From: Flavobacterium fluviale
GTDB lineage: Bacteria; Bacteroidota; Bacteroidia; Flavobacteriales; Flavobacteriaceae
Direction: 5' to 3'
Assembly (NCBI RefSeq): GCF_003312915.1
Contig: NZ_CP030261.1
Location: 2,418,001 to 2,482,000 of the forward strand
Length of the DNA stretch: 64,000 nucleotides
Part shown: one piece after another, positions 49,371 through 59,380 of the stretch
Position numbering within the stretch: position 1 is the stretch's first letter
Layout of the letters: every line of letters starts with the position of its first letter
Notes under the pieces: generated by a model
Database searches by the model: none
Told to the model about the DNA's origin: nothing
What the model saw: only the letters and a program-made list of their open reading frames with translations
Translations under genes and position numbers: made by a program

Positions 49371-52300
49371 ATGGAGCAACAAATCCCATATATTCCTAAA
49401 AATAAAGTAAGAATTGTCACAGCTGCTTCACTTTTTGACGGACATGATGCCGCAATAAACATTATGCGTCGTATTATTCAGTCAACAGGAGTAGAAGTTA
49501 TTCATCTTGGGCACGACAGAAGCGTTGAGGAAGTGGTAAATACTGCTATACAAGAAGATGCTAATGCTATTGCAATGACTTCTTATCAAGGCGGGCACAA
49601 TGAATACTTTAAATATATGTATGATCTGCTTCATGAAAAAGGAGCGGGACATATTAAAATATTCGGCGGCGGCGGCGGTGTAATTCTGCCAAGCGAAATT
49701 GCCGAATTGCACGAATATGGTATTACTAGAATTTATTCTCCTGACGATGGACGTTCTTTAGGTTTGCAGGGAATGATTAATGATTTGGTTGAACGTTCTG
49801 ATTTTCCTATTGGAGATCAATTAAACGGAGAAGTAGATCATATCGAAAATAAAGTTCCTACTGCCATTGCGCGTTTAATTTCGGCAGCAGAAAACTTCCC
49901 CGAAATTGCAAAACCTGTTTTCGATAAAATTCACGAAAGCAATACAAGTTCTAAAATTCCAGTTTTAGGAATTACAGGAACGGGCGGTGCTGGAAAATCT
50001 TCTTTGGTTGATGAATTGGTTCGCCGATTTTTAATTGATTTTCCAGAAAAAACAATCGGATTAATTTCTGTCGATCCTTCTAAGAGAAAAACTGGAGGAG
50101 CACTTTTAGGAGACAGAATCCGTATGAATGCCATCAATAATCCGCGCGTGTATATGCGTTCGCTGGCGACACGTCAGTCAAATTTGGCCTTATCTAAATA
50201 TGTAGCCGAAGCGATTCAGGTTTTGAAAGCGGCAAAATACGATTTGATTATTTTGGAAACTTCAGGAATTGGCCAGTCTGATACCGAAATTATGGATCAT
50301 TCTGATGTATCCTTATATGTAATGACACCAGAATTTGGAGCTGCAACACAATTGGAAAAGATCGATATGCTTGATTTTGCCGATTTAGTAGCTTTAAACA
50401 AATTTGATAAAAGAGGAGCTCTTGATGCTTTGCGCGATGTAAAAAAACAATATCAAAGAAACCATAATCTTTGGGATAAAAATCCTGATGAAATGCCGGT
50501 TTTCGGAACAATCGCTTCTCAGTTTAACGATCCCGGAATGAATACGCTTTACAAAGCGATTATGGATAAAGTGGTGGAAAAAACCGATTCTGATTTGAAA
50601 TCGACTTTTGAAATCACCAAAGAAATGAGTGAGAAAATCTTCGTGATTCCGCCGGGAAGAACACGTTATTTATCTGAAATTGCAGAGAATAACAGAAGTT
50701 ATGATGAAATCGCACTTTCGCAGCAAAAAGTAGCTCAGAAATTATACGGAATTTTCAAAACCATAGAGTCGGTTTCTGGGAAAATTCCTCAGATTACAAA
50801 AGCAGGAATTGATGATTCTACAGTTTTGCCAAGTGCAGCCCAACCACACGACGAAAACAGAATCTTTTTAAATCTTTTACTGAATCAGTTTGATAAAGTA
50901 AAAATGGATTTAGATCCGTACAATTGGGAAATTATCCTGAATTGGGATGAAAAAGCAGCGAAATATAAAAATCCAGTTTATAGTTTTAAAGTTCGTGATA
51001 AAGAAATTAAGATTGCTACGCATTCTGAAAGTTTATCGCATTTACAGATTCCTAAAATTGCTTTACCAAAATACGAAGGCTGGGGCGATATTCTGCGATG
51101 GAATTTACAGGAAAATGTTCCTGGCGAATTTCCGTTTGCTTCGGGATTATATCCGTTTAAGCGTGAAGGCGAAGATCCGTCGAGAATGTTTGCAGGCGAG
51201 GGCGGACCAGAAAGAACCAATAAACGTTTTCATTATGTAAGTGCTGGAATGCCTGCAAAACGTCTTTCGACAGCTTTTGACAGTGTTACGTTATACGGAA
51301 ACGATCCAGATTTGCGTCCAGATATTTATGGCAAAATTGGAAATGCAGGAGTTTCAATCTGCTGTTTAGACGATGCCAAAAAACTCTATTCAGGTTTCGA
51401 TTTGGTTCACGCTTTGACTTCGGTAAGTATGACCATCAATGGGCCAGCTCCAATGCTGTTAGGTTTCTTTATGAACGCAGCAATCGATCAGCAATGCGAA
51501 TTGTACATCAAAGCCAACGAATTAGAAAAAGAAGTTGAAGCCAAAATCAACAAAATATATAAGGACAAAGGAATCGAAAGACCAAAATACCAAGGCGATC
51601 TACCGGAAGGAAACAACGGTTTAGGATTAATGCTTTTGGGCGTTACGGGAGATCAGGTTTTACCTTTGGAAGTTTACAACGAAATAAAAGCCAAAACCTT
51701 ATCGCAAGTTCGTGGAACGGTTCAAGCCGATATTTTAAAAGAAGATCAGGCACAGAACACTTGTATTTTCTCAACTGAATTTGCGTTGCGATTAATGGGT
51801 GATGTTCAGGAATATTTTATCACTAAAAACGTTCGTAATTTTTATTCGGTTTCGATCTCAGGATATCATATTGCAGAGGCGGGAGCAAACCCAATTACGC
51901 AATTGGCTTTCACGCTTTCAAATGGTTTCACTTACGTGGAATATTATTTGAGCCGAGGCATGAACATCAACGATTTTGGACCGAATTTATCGTTCTTCTT
52001 CTCGAACGGAGTAGATCCAGAATATTCGGTTATTGGTCGTGTGGCACGTAAAATTTGGGCAAAAGCCATGAAAAACAAATACGGAGCCAATGAAAGAGCA
52101 CAAATGCTGAAATATCATATTCAGACTTCTGGACGTTCGCTGCATGCGCAGGAAATTGATTTCAACGATATTAGAACCACTTTACAGGCTTTATACGCCA
52201 TTTATGACAACTGTAATTCATTGCATACCAATGCTTACGACGAAGCCATTACAACGCCAACGGAAGAATCTGTACGTCGTGCCATGGCCATTCAGCTGAT

Positions 52301-52811
52301 TATTAATAAAGAATTAGGTTTGGCTAAAAACGAAAACCCAATTCAAGGTTCCTTCATCATCGAAGAATTAACTGATTTAGTAGAAGCAGCGGTTTTAAAA
52401 GAATTCGACAGAATTACAGAAAGAGGAGGAGTTCTAGGTGCAATGGAAACGATGTACCAAAGATCTAAAATTCAGGAAGAAAGTTTGTATTACGAAACCT
52501 TAAAACACAACGGAGATTTCCCAATTGTGGGTGTAAATACTTTCTTGAGTTCAAAAGGTTCGCCAACGGTGATTCCGGCTGAGGTTATTCGTGCTACCGA
52601 AGAGGAAAAGCAATATCAAATTACAATGCTGGATAATTTGCATCAATTTAATGAAGCAAAAGTAAACGAACATTTAAATACGTTACAGCAAGCGGCTATT
52701 AAAAACGAAAACTTATTCGACCATTTAATGGAAGCTACAAAGGTTTGTTCGTTAGGGCAGATTACTTCAGCGCTGTTTGAAGTGGGTGGGCAGTATAGAA
52801 GGAATATGTAA
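49371..52811 (+). CDS. icmF: Fused isobutyryl-CoA mutase
   Basis: 1146 aa, the IcmF architecture in order: N-terminal B12-binding domain ([17 protein letters not shown]; His25 can ligate cobalt), a G3E-family P-loop GTPase chaperone domain (GTGGAGKSS at residues 203-211; [20 protein letters not shown]), a linker and a large mutase TIM-barrel domain ([57 protein letters not shown]). It interconverts isobutyryl-CoA and n-butyryl-CoA or similar. Complete. The function is typical for this fused layout; the exact acyl-CoA preference is not seen. The 292 bp before it shows nothing beyond A/T-rich sequence. Confidence 0.93.
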
Positions 52812-52924: not shown

Positions 52925-53363
52925 CATAGCCCGTGGTTTCAACCACGGGTACACAGCACGAGCAAGACAATATTACGTTCCCGTGGTTGAAACCACGGGC
53001 TATATTTATAAAGTTTTGTAATAGCAAAAAAGAAAATCGTATTATTTTGTCATTTCGACAGAAGGGAGAAATCTTCGCAAGTAACTCCGCAACGAGAATC
53101 CAATCTTTGCCGAGTTACTTGCGAAGATTTCTCCTCCGTCGAAATGACAAGATTGCGGTTAATCTTGAAGAAGTTCCAAAGGAACAAAGGATATTGTAGG
53201 GATGTATTTTAATCCATCCAAGATAAAGAAATTCCGTAATCAAAATCCGTTAGCACGAGCAACCAAAAAATCCAATTGTCAAATATAGCCCGTGGTTTCA
53301 ACCACGGGAACGTAATATTATCTTGCTCGTATTGTGTACCCGTGGTTGAAACCACGGGCTATG
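52925..53363. repeat. Mirror-image REP element array
   Basis: Unit A (52925-53007) has the ends ATAGCCCGTGGTTTCAACCA and GGTTGAAACCACGGGCTAT. Unit B (53284-53363) is nearly the exact reverse complement of unit A (I counted only about three base changes in the central segment). Between them a ~105-bp inverted repeat (53047-53152; TGTCATTTCGACAGAAGGG... to ...CGTCGAAATGACA) is itself palindromic. No gene in 52812-53394. Confidence 0.82.
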
Positions 53364-55056: not shown

Positions 55057-55443
55057 TTAACGGCGGAATCCTGGGCTATGATTAGCAGATTCGTCTAATT
55101 TCACTGCTTTTACCTTTTTTGCAGCAACTTTAATTTCGTGTTTCGCAACTTTGTCGTTTGCTTTCACTTCTAGAACATAAGTTCCAGCTGGAAAACTTTC
55201 TAAACTAATTGTTTTTGAAACTTCCAATTTATTTGCTGCAGCGTCTCCTGCATAAAGTAAATTGTGATTCTCGTCGAAGATCGAGAAAGATGAATTCTCA
55301 ACAGTGTCTAAAGTAAAGCTAACTACTTTTCCGTTTCCTGTTTTGATGTTTAAAATATAATCACCTTTCCCATCAATGGCATAGGTAAACACAGTCGCTA
55401 AAAAAAAGGCAGCAACTAAACCGGCTTTGGTAAATTTTGTCAT
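55057..55443 (-). CDS. Small secreted beta-sandwich-like protein 1
   Basis: 128 aa. Signal peptide ends TVFTYAIDG. Mature part: GDYILNIKTGNGKVVSFTLDTVENSSFSIFDENHNLLYAGDAAANKLEVSKTISLESFPAGTYVLEVKANDKVAKHEIKV. The arrangement IFDENHNLLY...LESFPAGTYVLEV resembles the type A sorting-domain sandwich of T9SS substrates, here as a free-standing domain. It is the most diverged of four tandem paralogs and the only one without the 27-bp upstream motif. Basic Pro-Gly-Phe end (HSPGFRR) is shared in style with the next two. Confidence 0.75.
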   Translation of the reverse strand: MTKFTKAGLVAAFFLATVFTYAIDGKGDYILNIKTGNGKVVSFTLDTVENSSFSIFDENHNLLYAGDAAANKLEVSKTISLESFPAGTYVLEVKANDKVAKHEIKVAAKKVKAVKLDESANHSPGFRR

Positions 55444-55715
55444 GTTTTTTTTAATTGTTAATTACTAAATGTGGAACACGTAAAACTACAAATACAAATT
55501 TAATTTTTAGCAAAATTTTAGCATTTTTAGCGCGTTAAGTTGTTGAATTGTAATCATATCAGTATTTTGTTTGAACTATGTACGTAATTACTGGGCTTGT
55601 GGATTGCTGTTTTTTAATTTTTTTTTAACGGTTGGAAATCAAATATTTGAATTAATAAGAATATTTTTTCATATAAAATTTAGTGTAAAAATCACGTTTA
55701 TTTTTCGGCACAAAA

Positions 55716-55748
55716 AAAACAGCTCCGTAACCAACCGCGAGCTGTTTT
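55716..55748 (-). terminator. Terminator of secreted paralog 2
   Basis: AACAGCT / AGCTGTT hairpin with A and T runs. Same stem as the terminators at 56619 and 57543: the terminators were duplicated with the genes. Confidence 0.8.
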
Positions 55749-55817
55749 TCTTCTTCAACAATAAAATATTTTAATTTTTTCTAACCTTATTTTATACCGT
55801 TTGAAAGTATAAAATTT

Positions 55818-56219
55818 TTAACGTGCAGCAACGCTTGTATTTTTTGCAAAACCTGGTTTGTAAACTGAAGAAATTGCAGTTCTTGATAAAGCTGCATTAT
55901 CAGTTATTGTAATCTCGTATTTTGCTTTTTTTACGTTGTCTTCAACTACTAAAAAATAAGTTCCTTCTGGGAATTCTTCTAAGCTGAAAGTTCTTAAAAT
56001 TCCTTCTTTACCTGAAGCGCTTTCAGAATAAATTAAAGTTCCGTCTTTGTCATAAATAGCTAAATTGGCTTTCTGTACTTTATTAAGTGCGAAAGTGATC
56101 AGTTTTCCATTAGCTTTTAATACGTGAAGATTAAATTCTCCATTTCCGTCAATTGCGTAAGTGCTTATTCCTGTGAATAGCAACGCTGCTACTAAACTCA
56201 ATTTTGCAATCTTTTTCAT
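55818..56219 (-). CDS. Small secreted beta-sandwich-like protein 2
   Basis: 133 aa. Signal peptide ends STYAIDG. FNLHVLKANGKLITFALNKVQKANLAIYDKDGTLIYSESASGKEGILRTFSLEEFPEGTYFLVVEDNVKKAKYEITI, then VYKPGFAKNTSVAAR. Very close to paralog 3. Upstream 27-bp motif at 56324-56350 and a conserved leader. Likely periplasmic or surface protein of unknown role. Confidence 0.78.
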   Translation of the reverse strand: MKKIAKLSLVAALLFTGISTYAIDGNGEFNLHVLKANGKLITFALNKVQKANLAIYDKDGTLIYSESASGKEGILRTFSLEEFPEGTYFLVVEDNVKKAKYEITITDNAALSRTAISSVYKPGFAKNTSVAAR

Positions 56220-56323
56220 GGTACTTAGTTTTTAAATTAATAGTTCTAATTCTCTGATGCTAAATTACTTATGAAATACGTTAAAAAGCGCAACTGTGTT
56301 TTCTTATTTCTATGCTATATTCT

Positions 56324-56350
56324 CATTTACGAAACCGTTATAGGTTAAAA
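56324..56350 (-). promoter_or_regulatory. 27-bp motif, copy 1 (before paralog 2)
   Basis: Core AACCGTTATAGGTTAAAA, preceded by CATTTACGA. The near end is 105 bp before the ATG. AACC and GGTT half-sites form a short inverted repeat across GTTATA. Confidence 0.75.
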
Positions 56351-56459
56351 CATGAATTATTTTTAACGTTTTTGTTAATTCAGTTATTTTTATTCAAAGT
56401 TTTACTAGATTTTAAGTTTACAAAGAGCTAAGAATTTATTTACATATAAAATAGTGTGT

Positions 56460-56600
56460 TTAAACGCAAAGCTCGCAAAGATTTACGCAAAGTGCGCTAA
56501 AAATTATTATAAGGAGGTTTATAAAACGAAAAAGTTCGCAAAGCTTTGTGAAAAAAAACTTTGCGAACTTTGCGTAAATCTTTGCGAGCTTTGCGGTAAA
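56460..56600. repeat. CGCAAAGCTCGCAAAGATTTACGCAAAG repeats in 56220-56721
   Basis: Forward words (CGCAAAGCTCGCAAAG) and reverse words (AACTTTGCGTAAATC, CTTTGCGAGCTTTGCGG) form an inverted repeat. The in-frame translations here (KLCELCVNLCELC) are repeat artefacts, not a protein. Confidence 0.7.
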
Positions 56601-56618
56601 AAACTTTGTGATAAAAAA

Positions 56619-56650
56619 AAACAGCTCTATAACCACAAAGAGCTGTTTTT
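56619..56650 (-). terminator. Terminator of secreted paralog 3
   Basis: AACAGCTCT / AGAGCTGTT with loop ATAACCACAA. Confidence 0.82.
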
Positions 56651-56721
56651 AAAACTTTAAAAGTTTTTAAACTTTACTAACTATCTAACCTCACTTTATA
56701 CTTTATGAGAGTATAAACTTT

Positions 56722-57126
56722 TTAGCGTGTTGCCACACTTGTGTTTTTTTCGAAACCTGCTTTATAAACCGAAGAAACTGCATTTTGAGATAATACAGAA
56801 ATGTTATCAGTTACTTTAATTTCGTATTTTGATTTTTTCATATTGTCCTCTACTTCTAAGAAGTAAGTTCCTTCTGGAAATTCTTCTAAGCTGAAAGTTC
56901 TCAAGATTCCATCTTTACCTGAAGCTGTTTCAGAATAAATAAGAGATCCATCTTTATCGTAAATAGATAAATTAGCTTTCTGAGTCTGATTAAGACCGAA
57001 AGTGATTAATTTTCCATTAGCTTTTAATACGTGAAGATTAAACTCCGCCGTTCCATCAATTGCATATGTGCTAATTCCTGTGAAAAGCAATGCAGCAACT
57101 AAACTCAATCTAACAATCTTTTTCAT
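56722..57126 (-). CDS. Small secreted beta-sandwich-like protein 3
   Basis: 134 aa. Signal peptide ends STYAIDG; FNLHVLKANGKLITFGLNQTQKANLSIYDKDGSLIYSETASGKDGILRTFSLEEFPEGTYFLEVEDNMKKSKYEIKV and VYKAGFEKNTSVATR. Almost identical to paralog 2 over its whole length, so recent tandem duplication. 27-bp motif at 57231-57257. Confidence 0.8.
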   Translation of the reverse strand: MKKIVRLSLVAALLFTGISTYAIDGTAEFNLHVLKANGKLITFGLNQTQKANLSIYDKDGSLIYSETASGKDGILRTFSLEEFPEGTYFLEVEDNMKKSKYEIKVTDNISVLSQNAVSSVYKAGFEKNTSVATR

Positions 57127-57230
57127 AGTATTTAGTTTTAAAATTAATAGTTCTAATTCTCTGATGCTAAATTACTTTAGTTGTAAGTAAAAAATCACAA
57201 CTATATTTTCCTATTTCTATGCTGTATTCT

Positions 57231-57257
57231 CATTTACGAAACCGTTATAGGTTAAAA
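57231..57257 (-). promoter_or_regulatory. 27-bp motif, copy 2 (before paralog 3)
   Basis: Same core AACCGTTATAGGTTAAAA, again 105 bp before the ATG. Confidence 0.75.
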
Positions 57258-57439
57258 TTTGAATTATTTTTATCGTTTTTGTTAATTCAGTTGTTATTTT
57301 TCAACGTTTTTGATGATTTTTAATTTACATTGAATTAAAGATTTCTTTAATAATTGTAGGAATGTGGGTGAGGTTGATGCTAAGGTATCGAGATGCTAAG
57401 TTTTTATTCTTGTGTATTTATACCTTAAAATCACACGAA

Positions 57440-57530
57440 GAAAAACACAGAGGTTCGCAAAGTTAAAAAAACTCTGAGTACCGAGGCTTCGGGGATTGCG
57501 TAAGTCTTTGCGTGCTTTGCGATTAAAAAA
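57440..57530. repeat. CAAAGTT/CTTTGCG repeat in 57127-57692
   Basis: GAGGTTCGCAAAGTTAAAA to AAGTCTTTGCGTGCTTTGCG; same family as 40885. A GGTATCGAGATGCTAAG word lies at ~57380. Otherwise only the promoter and terminator are seen in this gap. Confidence 0.55.
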
Positions 57531-57542
57531 AAGTAAAGAGCA

Positions 57543-57580
57543 AAAAAAAAACAGCTCAGTAACCACAAAGAGCTGTTTTT
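57543..57580 (-). terminator. Terminator of secreted paralog 4
   Basis: AACAGCTC / GAGCTGTT with loop AGTAACCACAAA. Confidence 0.82.
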
Positions 57581-57692
57581 AAAACTTTTGAAAGTTTTTA
57601 ACTTACTAACTATCTAACCTCACTTTTTATACTGTATTAGAGTATAAAACTTTTAAGTGCTGTGAAGTAATGCACTTAACCTTAATATCTTC

Positions 57693-58058
57693 TTAGTAAA
57701 TTGAAGTAGTTCCTTTTGAAGACAATACAGAACTATTTGCATTTACGTTAATGTCGTATTTTACTTTTTTGAAATTGTCAGCAACTTCTAAAATGTATTT
57801 TCCTTGTGGAAATTCTTCTAAACTGAATGTTCTTAAGATACCATCTTTACCAGAAGCATTTTCAGTGTAGATTAAATTACCATTTGTATCATATATACTA
57901 ATAACTGCTTTCTGAAGTTGGTTAATACCAAATGCAATTACCTTGCCATTTCCTTTTAATACATGAAGATTTAGTGCTTCATTTCCATCAATTGCATAAG
58001 TACTCATTCCAGTAAAAAGTACTGCACATACTAAACTTAATTTCATAATCTTTTTCAT
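57693..58058 (-). CDS. Small secreted beta-sandwich-like protein 4
   Basis: 121 aa, ending at TTSIY; the C-terminal Arg-rich tail of paralogs 2 and 3 is missing. Signal peptide ends STYAIDG; LNLHVLKGNGKVIAFGINQLQKAVISIYDTNGNLIYTENASGKDGILRTFSLEEFPQGKYILEVADNFKKVKYDINV. 27-bp motif at 58162-58188. Family as in paralogs 1-3. Confidence 0.78.
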   Translation of the reverse strand: MKKIMKLSLVCAVLFTGMSTYAIDGNEALNLHVLKGNGKVIAFGINQLQKAVISIYDTNGNLIYTENASGKDGILRTFSLEEFPQGKYILEVADNFKKVKYDINVNANSSVLSSKGTTSIY

Positions 58059-58161
58059 ATTCCTGGGTGTTTAAATTTTTAGTTCGTTTCTCTTAGGCAA
58101 AGTTATAGCAGCATGTGTGTTATTTTAACAACTATATTTTCCAATTTATGTGCTATATTCT

Positions 58162-58188
58162 CATTTACGAAACCGTTATAGGTTAAAA
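58162..58188 (-). promoter_or_regulatory. 27-bp motif, copy 3 (before paralog 4)
   Basis: Same core, 104 bp before the ATG. Confidence 0.75.
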
Positions 58189-58423
58189 TTTGAGTTTAAT
58201 TAAGTGTTTTTGTTAATTTGATTATTATTTTTCAATGTTTTGCTAAAACCGAATACTTCTTAAATTTTCTGTTTTTCTTACAAATTTTAACATATTTGTA
58301 TTAATTTGGGTTTTAAATATGATTATTGAAAAAAAAGTGAAGAAAAAAAATGAGACATGAAAAAATTAGCGTTTTTGTTGTAAAATTCTCAGTGTTAAGA
58401 ACGTTATTTTAATGTAAAATTCG

Positions 58424-58450
58424 CATTTACGAAACCGTTATAGGTTAAAA
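58424..58450 (+). promoter_or_regulatory. 27-bp motif, copy 4 (before the AraC gene)
   Basis: Same core in the same orientation as copies 1-3, but here the gene lies on the other side. It ends 25 bp before the TAAATTTG -7 box, a position fit for an activator or auto-regulator. Confidence 0.75.
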
Positions 58451-58475
58451 TTTAAATTATTTTAGGTGTTTTTGT

Positions 58476-58483
58476 TAAATTTG
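58476..58483 (+). promoter_or_regulatory. -7 box TAAATTTG of the AraC gene
   Basis: Exact TAnnTTTG, 24 bp before the ATG at 58508. It supports 58508 rather than the upstream start at 58466. Confidence 0.65.
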
Positions 58484-58507
58484 CTATTATTTTTTAAAGA
58501 AATTATC

Positions 58508-59380
58508 ATGAAGACAATTGCCCCAGCTCTTGAAGTGATAACTAACTCATACGGAAGTTCTTTTACCTACACTAAACACGCCGAAAAGACCAATAGCAAA
58601 GCTCATTTATGGCATTATCATCCAGAGATTGAGTTGGTTTATATTAACGGCGGGGCTGGAAAAAGACAAATAGGAAGCCATGTTTCTTATTACACGAATG
58701 GTAGTTTACTTTTAATAGGAGCCAATTTGCCCCATTGCGGTTTTACAAATGAAAATACAGGTAATACAAATGAAACTGTAATTCATATTAAACCTGAATT
58801 TTTAGGAAGCGATTTTTTTGTTGCTCCTGAAATGAAAAAAGTGCAGAATATTTTGAATCAGGCTAAAGGCGGAATTGCTTTTGGAGGTGAAACAAAAAAA
58901 AGAATAGGAAAGAAAATTGAAATGATGGAGAATGAACCTCCGTTTCAACGTTTGATCACACTTTTGAGTGTTTTGGACGAATTGGAATCGGCTGAGGATT
59001 ATACCATTTTAAATGCTGACGGATTTTCATTAGAGTTACAGACTCAGGATAACGACCGTATTAATGTGGTTTTTAATTTTGTGAAAGATCATTTTCAGGA
59101 ATCTATTTCGATCGATGAAGTCTCAAGTTTGGTAAGTATGACAACACCATCTTTCTGTCGTTATTTTAAAAAGATATCCAATAAAACATTTACTGAATTT
59201 GTGAATGAATACCGTTTGGTTCATGCTTCAAAGCTTTTGGCAGAACAACCAATGAGTATCAATGAAGTATGCTACGAAAGCGGATTTAATAATTTCAGCC
59301 ACTTTAGTAAATCATTTAAACAATATACAGGTAAAAGCGCGTCGCAATACCGACATGAGCATAAGATTATAATTAGCTAG
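58508..59380 (+). CDS. AraC-family regulator with cupin sensor domain
   Basis: 290 aa from the ATG at 58508. N-terminal cupin domain (LWHYHPEIELVYINGGAGKRQIGSHV...GSLLLIGANLPHCGF) binds a ligand or senses one; C-terminal HTH pair (ISIDEVSSLVSMTTPSFCRYFKKISNKTFTEFVNEYRLVHASKLLAEQPMSINEVCYESGFNNFSHFSKSFKQYTGKSASQYR). Its promoter has copy 4 of the 27-bp motif, whose other copies precede paralogs 2-4, so it is the best candidate for the factor that reads the motif and for autoregulation. Inducing ligand unknown. Confidence 0.9.
   Translation: MKTIAPALEVITNSYGSSFTYTKHAEKTNSKAHLWHYHPEIELVYINGGAGKRQIGSHVSYYTNGSLLLIGANLPHCGFTNENTGNTNETVIHIKPEFLGSDFFVAPEMKKVQNILNQAKGGIAFGGETKKRIGKKIEMMENEPPFQRLITLLSVLDELESAEDYTILNADGFSLELQTQDNDRINVVFNFVKDHFQESISIDEVSSLVSMTTPSFCRYFKKISNKTFTEFVNEYRLVHASKLLAEQPMSINEVCYESGFNNFSHFSKSFKQYTGKSASQYRHEHKIIIS

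Follow-up and report, generated by a model that had tools for sequence, protein, structure and literature searches.

A cupin-AraC gene and divergent secreted Ig-like genes of Flavobacterium fluviale with duplicated copies of a putative operator region

In a 64-kb window of the Flavobacterium fluviale genome (the window being the whole stretch of DNA that was analysed), the gene of a cupin-AraC regulator adjoins a row of four tandem genes for small secreted-type proteins, and three of these (paralogs 2 to 4) share a 27-bp motif with araC. An initial annotation had viewed this motif, here called S2, as the AraC binding site of a compact regulon. Following it up in the window, in the whole 4.84-Mb genome and in related genomes, we found that araC is paired with a divergent gene of the secreted family far beyond this species, that S2 adjoins a second element, S1, which the initial annotation lacked, and that the two elements decay asymmetrically among the duplicated promoters. 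We consider it quite probable that the four sites are copies of an operator from one ancient divergent promoter, in which AraC acts via S1 and S2 is a second, bidirectional operator. S2 stands for the core AACCGTTATAGGTTAAAA within the 27-mer CATTTACGAAACCGTTATAGGTTAAAA, and S1 for the neighbouring AATATAGCATAnAAATnGGAAAA, written in the sense of the secreted gene; the araC start is taken as the ATG at 58508, the listed open reading frame (ORF) beginning further upstream, at a GTG.

A scan of the window finds four exact copies of the S2 core on the forward strand, at 56333, 57240, 58171 and 58433, and all four have the 27 bp in common. Three lie upstream of paralogs 2, 3 and 4 (56324-56350, 57231-57257 and 58162-58188, with cores at 56333-56350, 57240-57257 and 58171-58188) and are conserved across Flavobacterium; the fourth (58424-58450, core 58433-58450) lies upstream of araC, at about -75 from its ATG genus-wide. 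When up to 3 mismatches are allowed, the window holds 5 core matches, against 0.11 in window shuffles. In the whole genome the four copies are the sole matches at 0-1 mismatch, the next best having 2. The genome scan proposed as a check in the initial annotation reveals no random spread: good matches are confined to this locus and elsewhere there are only looser ones, which at up to 3 mismatches bring the total to 21, fewer than the 32 of a reversed-pattern control. The distances first reported also hold, since the core lies 113, 113 and 112 bp before the ATG of paralogs 2, 3 and 4 (104-105 bp when reckoned from the start of the 27-mer), and the fourth core ends 25 bp ahead of the araC TAAATTTG box. 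The shared orientation is true of the forward strand only; relative to transcription, S2 is inverted at the paralogs, which lie on the reverse strand, and direct at araC, which lies on the forward strand. Similarly, the AACC...GGTT inverted repeat pointed out earlier is present in the window but orthologous sites do not preserve it (AATCG..., AAACG..., ...TGTTAA), and we rejected a palindromic LuxR/TetR-like site for this reason. Paralog 1, proposed as a natural control, is indeed one, being free of the motif both in F. fluviale and in all relatives that were inspected.

Across the genus, S2 goes with araC. We surveyed 299 Flavobacterium genomes, counting araC as present at E <= 1e-90 and S2 at no more than one mismatch: S2 occurs in 58 and araC in 111, with both in 55, S2 only in 3, araC only in 56 and neither in 185. 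The 3 genomes with S2 only have single one-mismatch matches each, as a control pattern also yields, and in the 56 with araC only the AraC protein is mostly 56-73% identical and S2 has diverged. Where AraC is at least 79% identical, S2 is found in 54 of 57 genomes; every genome with two or more S2 matches has araC. The listed matches in araC genomes sit just upstream of araC, except for one in G184:C59 and two in G162:C107, which are off the araC contig, and throughout the genus S2 keeps a fixed position ahead of both araC and the paralogs. In the aligned Pedobacter and Sinomicrobium loci S2 is not detectable, which makes it a Flavobacterium-only element.

The gene pair itself is kept much further out. 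In nearly all of the 80 loci of the closest AraC relatives (Flavobacterium, Pedobacter, Sinomicrobium), genes of the secreted family are divergent from araC. In the more distant Bacteroidia loci added by a class-wide search, the divergent gene matches the hidden Markov model (HMM) of the family with E values of 1e-14 to 1e-88, down to 42% AraC identity; in the lower-scoring loci L161-L168 (about 36-42% identity) it no longer matches. Further neighbours (esterase, TerC, mutase) accompany the pair in the near clade only, so the conserved unit is araC together with the secreted gene, and no catabolic genes were found in the conserved neighbourhood. Judged from these sequences, the pair is an ancient divergent unit of a cupin-AraC gene and a secreted immunoglobulin-like (Ig-like), DUF3244-like gene. 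Single-copy relatives have one S2 between the two genes, at a distance of about 112 bp to the ATG of the secreted gene and about 58 bp to that of araC (for example L089). Because both distances recur in the window, its layout points to an origin in which the secreted gene was duplicated in tandem together with its promoter half, and the anatomy suggests that all copies descend from one divergent promoter whose araC-proximal copy lost its secreted gene.

S1, which adjoins S2 in the intergenic alignment, is the more deeply conserved of the two elements and persists in Pedobacter and Sinomicrobium. In the window it lies on the reverse strand before paralog 2 (AATATAGCATAGAAATAAGAAAA, 56299-56321, a probable AraC half-site), paralog 3 (57206-57228) and paralog 4 (58137-58159). 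It abuts the -33 box of the secreted genes, and most relatives have it 77-80 bp before the start codon, Sinomicrobium 81-84 bp before it; these values come out smaller at some loci where ORF starts are set too far upstream. The F. fluviale genome has three S1 matches at one mismatch, all at this locus, and in ten other genomes scanned the araC locus holds 8 of 9 matches. We rejected the idea that S2 or S1 marks a regulon spread over the whole genome, there being no further good sites in F. fluviale. The bipartite form TAGCATA...GGAAAA and the position of S1 fit an AraC-family half-site upstream of a -33 box, and the form is similar to the known half-sites of AraC (TAGC-N7-TCCATA) and XylS (TGCA-N6-GGNTA) (PMC4514859). 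In addition, the recognition-helix region of the AraC protein, SFCRYFKK, is nearly invariant across Flavobacterium, Pedobacter and Sinomicrobium, and since S1 is kept with these helices where S2 is gone, we favour it over S2 as the candidate AraC site. In one Flavobacterium metagenome-assembled genome (L123:6957-7334) the secreted gene follows araC and is not divergent; an S1-like element is kept 76 bp upstream of it despite this layout, so that S1 appears to travel with the secreted gene. What survives of the earlier regulon idea is a compact local regulon; S1 is better conserved than the motif on which the idea was built, the inverted repeat is not kept and the constant distance would be inherited by duplication.

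The duplicates also allow each promoter element to be assigned to a gene. In 39 genomes, we compared the araC-proximal copies with 119 sites that stand before secreted genes only. The araC -7 box TAAATTTG (58476-58483, forward strand), of the Bacteroidota -7 consensus TAnnTTTG (PMC6847099), is matched exactly by 39/39 araC-proximal copies and by 0/119 of the others. S1 behaves in the opposite way, with a mean of 8.1 mismatches of 20 at araC-proximal sites (in the window, the decayed position at 58399-58421 on the reverse strand, which no secreted gene follows) against 1.5 at secreted copies and 10.5 in shuffled sequence. S2 is kept on both sides (0.64 and 0.48 mean mismatches, respectively). 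An araC-side element between S2 and the -7 box, S3 (AATTATTTTAGGTG..., 58455-58475, forward strand), is conserved in araC copies and not in paralog copies, an asymmetry opposite to that of S1; in Pedobacter it reads AATAAAGCATA, resembling the first box of S1. Parsimony changes per column, counted on the araC tree for the araC-proximal and the nearest secreted copy, are 0.95 and 0.43 for S2, 7.4 and 1.4 for S1, and 3.3 and 0.0 for the S1-S2 linker. This asymmetric decay argues that S1 works for the secreted gene, S3 and the -7 box for araC, and S2 for both. It also bears on whether the four copies are a mere by-product of tandem duplication, functionless at the extra positions. It is true that each copy lies within a duplicated promoter block and that homology continues past the motif into the flanks, yet we hold this reading to be highly improbable. 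Third codon positions of araC show 6.4 changes per column and the far flank about 6, but S2 only 0.4-1.0, and elsewhere in the duplicated block the sequence does decay, a conservation pattern that already contradicts such a reading. On the secreted side, -7-like boxes are found on the reverse strand before paralog 2 (TAATTTAG, 56260-56267, with a -33-like AGTTG at 56291-56295) and paralog 3 (TAATTTAG, 57167-57174), both conserved, and a -7 box is read from the sequence before paralog 4 (TAACTTTG, 58098-58105). A scan for E. coli-type sigma-70 promoters found no more of them than in shuffled sequence, which is the expected outcome in this phylum.

We envision that, on some signal, AraC would bind S1 just upstream of the -33 box of each secreted gene and activate it. 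S2, situated between S1 and the promoter of araC and bordering the araC -33 region, would serve both directions, contributing to activation of the secreted genes and to autoregulation of araC. Paralogs 2-4 would then each have received an S1 and an S2 when the secreted gene was duplicated in tandem along with its side of the divergent promoter, and the araC-proximal copy would have lost first its secreted gene and then S1, keeping S2 and the araC -7 box. The parts of this model differ in strength. AraC quite probably binds S1, and regulation is likely to be activation; autoregulation of araC is reasonably likely, and binding of AraC to S2 as well, the weakest step, is something we favour by a narrow measure. 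Several points weigh against the model. S2 is unlike S1 in sequence, and it is not obvious that one protein would read both; S2 also varies where the DNA-binding domain of AraC hardly changes. Once AraC identity drops below about 57%, S1 can be recognised only in part, with its core in 8 of the 19 loci from the class-wide search, where 0.25 would be expected. Finally, related sequences share a history and conservation counts are not independent, an effect of kinship that parsimony counts lessen and do not remove.

The first two of these points would also fit an arrangement in which S2 is bound by another, locus-restricted regulator and AraC acts via S1 and, at its own promoter, via S3. Indeed, S2 is gone from Pedobacter and Sinomicrobium despite nearly identical AraC recognition helices, its sequence differs from that of S1, and the Pedobacter araC promoter has the S1-like AATAAAGCATA in its place. 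We regard a separate regulator as unlikely, however, because S2 is confined to this locus and tied to araC genus-wide, which would be odd for an unlinked regulator, and because the S1-S2 linker is unchanged at the secreted copies of the 39 genomes, as if one complex spanned both elements.

A different function could be read into the spacer between the S2 sites of paralog 4 and araC (58189-58432). The two sites are exactly 262 bp apart, start to start, in 30 of 38 genomes (range 260-264), or about 25 helical turns, although the spacer is only 71% identical on average and pairwise down to 60%; another intergenic stretch of the cluster ranges from 218 to 1051 bp. The S2 pair could thus hold a repression loop between the two promoters, for which araO2-araI1 of E. 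coli is a precedent. We think such a loop rather improbable: conserved islands in the spacer could alone fix its length, alignment gaps are so rare that compensating insertions and deletions are not shown, and single-copy relatives have no second S2 to loop to. Such islands are seen at 58270-58400 (TTCTTAC, TATnnnTATAAAA, TTTAAATAnGAT and A-tracts). A 13-codon frame near 58321 was considered as a small ORF and rejected, since the alignment with relatives does not show it to be conserved.

Strong conservation of non-coding sequence near start codons might also mark an RNA element, either a leader or a small RNA. To this we give next to no credence, given that the site occurs both inverted and direct with respect to transcription and lies upstream of the -33/-7 boxes, that no Rfam family matches at gathering score and that the spacer alignment has no consensus structure. 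A broader picture, which we put forward tentatively and think less likely than not, is that a cupin-AraC protein whose control is limited to its own gene and to a family of small exported Ig-like proteins, probably as one sensing loop, has been kept across Bacteroidia, and that Flavobacterium gained the bidirectional S2, possibly for another factor or for looping over the 262 bp.

The regulator (58508-59380, forward strand, 290 amino acids) has a C-terminal double helix-turn-helix with matches above gathering score to HTH_18 (E 1.4e-20) and HTH_AraC (2.1e-15). Its N-terminal cupin scores weakly, below gathering score for both Cupin_2 (E 3.5e-4) and AraC_binding (0.0098), and its HYHPEIE motif is conserved. 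The secreted paralogs are exported-type proteins of 121-134 amino acids with one beta domain each, encoded on the reverse strand: paralog 1, without S1 or S2, at 55057-55443, and the Ig-like (DUF3244-like) paralogs 2, 3 and 4 at 55818-56219, 56722-57126 and 57693-58058. Pfam and NCBIfam place their domain between DUF3244 and the type A sorting domain of the type IX secretion system (T9SS). Against a DUF3244 (PF11589) cut-off of 25 bits, paralogs 4, 3, 2 and 1 score 25.9, 24.8, 22.9 and 13.7. A structure model of paralog 3 is all-beta (mean predicted local distance difference test, pLDDT, 78; strands mostly above 85), and the top hits of a fold search are Ig-like DUF3244 structures of Bacteroides, with E 2.5e-3, a match to this beta-sandwich fold that is suggestive and not strong; a sequence search found no solved structure related to the protein. 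The TIGR04183 match, just above the NCBIfam cut-off, covers residues 38-101 of 134 and is the sole domain. We rejected T9SS cargo with a type A sorting domain, since the match spans the body of the protein and not the C-terminal tail of a larger cargo, so that the paralogs need not be T9SS cargo.

Between the paralog genes are near-identical AACAGCTC...GAGCTGTTTTT hairpins (55719-55750, 56619-56650 and 57549-57582), probably intrinsic terminators duplicated together with the genes, and GCAAAG-rich intergenic inverted repeats (56460-56610 and 57440-57530, for example the stem at 56531-56571). Upstream of the cluster, 49371-52811 encodes a fused methylmalonyl-CoA mutase-type protein of 1146 amino acids, identified by eye only. 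An inverted-repeat element resembling repetitive extragenic palindromes or bacterial interspersed mosaic elements (REP/BIME-like) occurs twice, in opposite orientations (52926-53005 and 53283-53362), with CCCGTGGTTTCAACCACGGG on both flanks.

In kind, the system would be a divergent, self-contained AraC regulon. As in E. coli araC-araBAD, a cupin-AraC regulator is divergent from its predicted target and probably autoregulated, a putative bipartite half-site of TAGC type adjoins the upstream promoter box of the target, and there are two candidate operator elements of unequal quality. Unlike in E. coli, the target is a small exported Ig-like protein and not catabolic enzymes, the conserved unit has no sugar genes, the promoters are of the Bacteroidota -33/-7 type, S2 is no clear copy of S1, and each tandem duplicate has its own putative operator. 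The target itself is most like the Bacteroides DUF3244 Ig-like proteins BT_1867 (PDB 4g5a), BT_3571 (3sd2) and BVU_0276 (3d33), the best fold matches of the paralog 3 model (probability 1.00), in keeping with the borderline Pfam matches, but identity is 10-17% and Foldseek E values are 2.5e-3 or weaker; in the literature covered we found no AraC pairing described for these proteins. The likeness to the T9SS sorting domain (TIGR04183/Por_Secre_tail) is a single domain that makes up the whole mature protein, rather than a C-terminal tail on cargo, and probably reflects fold resemblance. The secreted target and its class-wide conservation appear undescribed, no description having been found in the open-access literature (subscription papers were outside the search).

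An AraC-type regulator of Bacteroidota thus gains a predicted operator and a closed list of targets, and the paralog copies with and without each element are a ready-made set of natural promoter mutants. That a two-gene unit is kept class-wide amid changing surroundings suggests that the regulator senses something linked to the secreted protein or its export, an idea that is directly testable in Flavobacterium.

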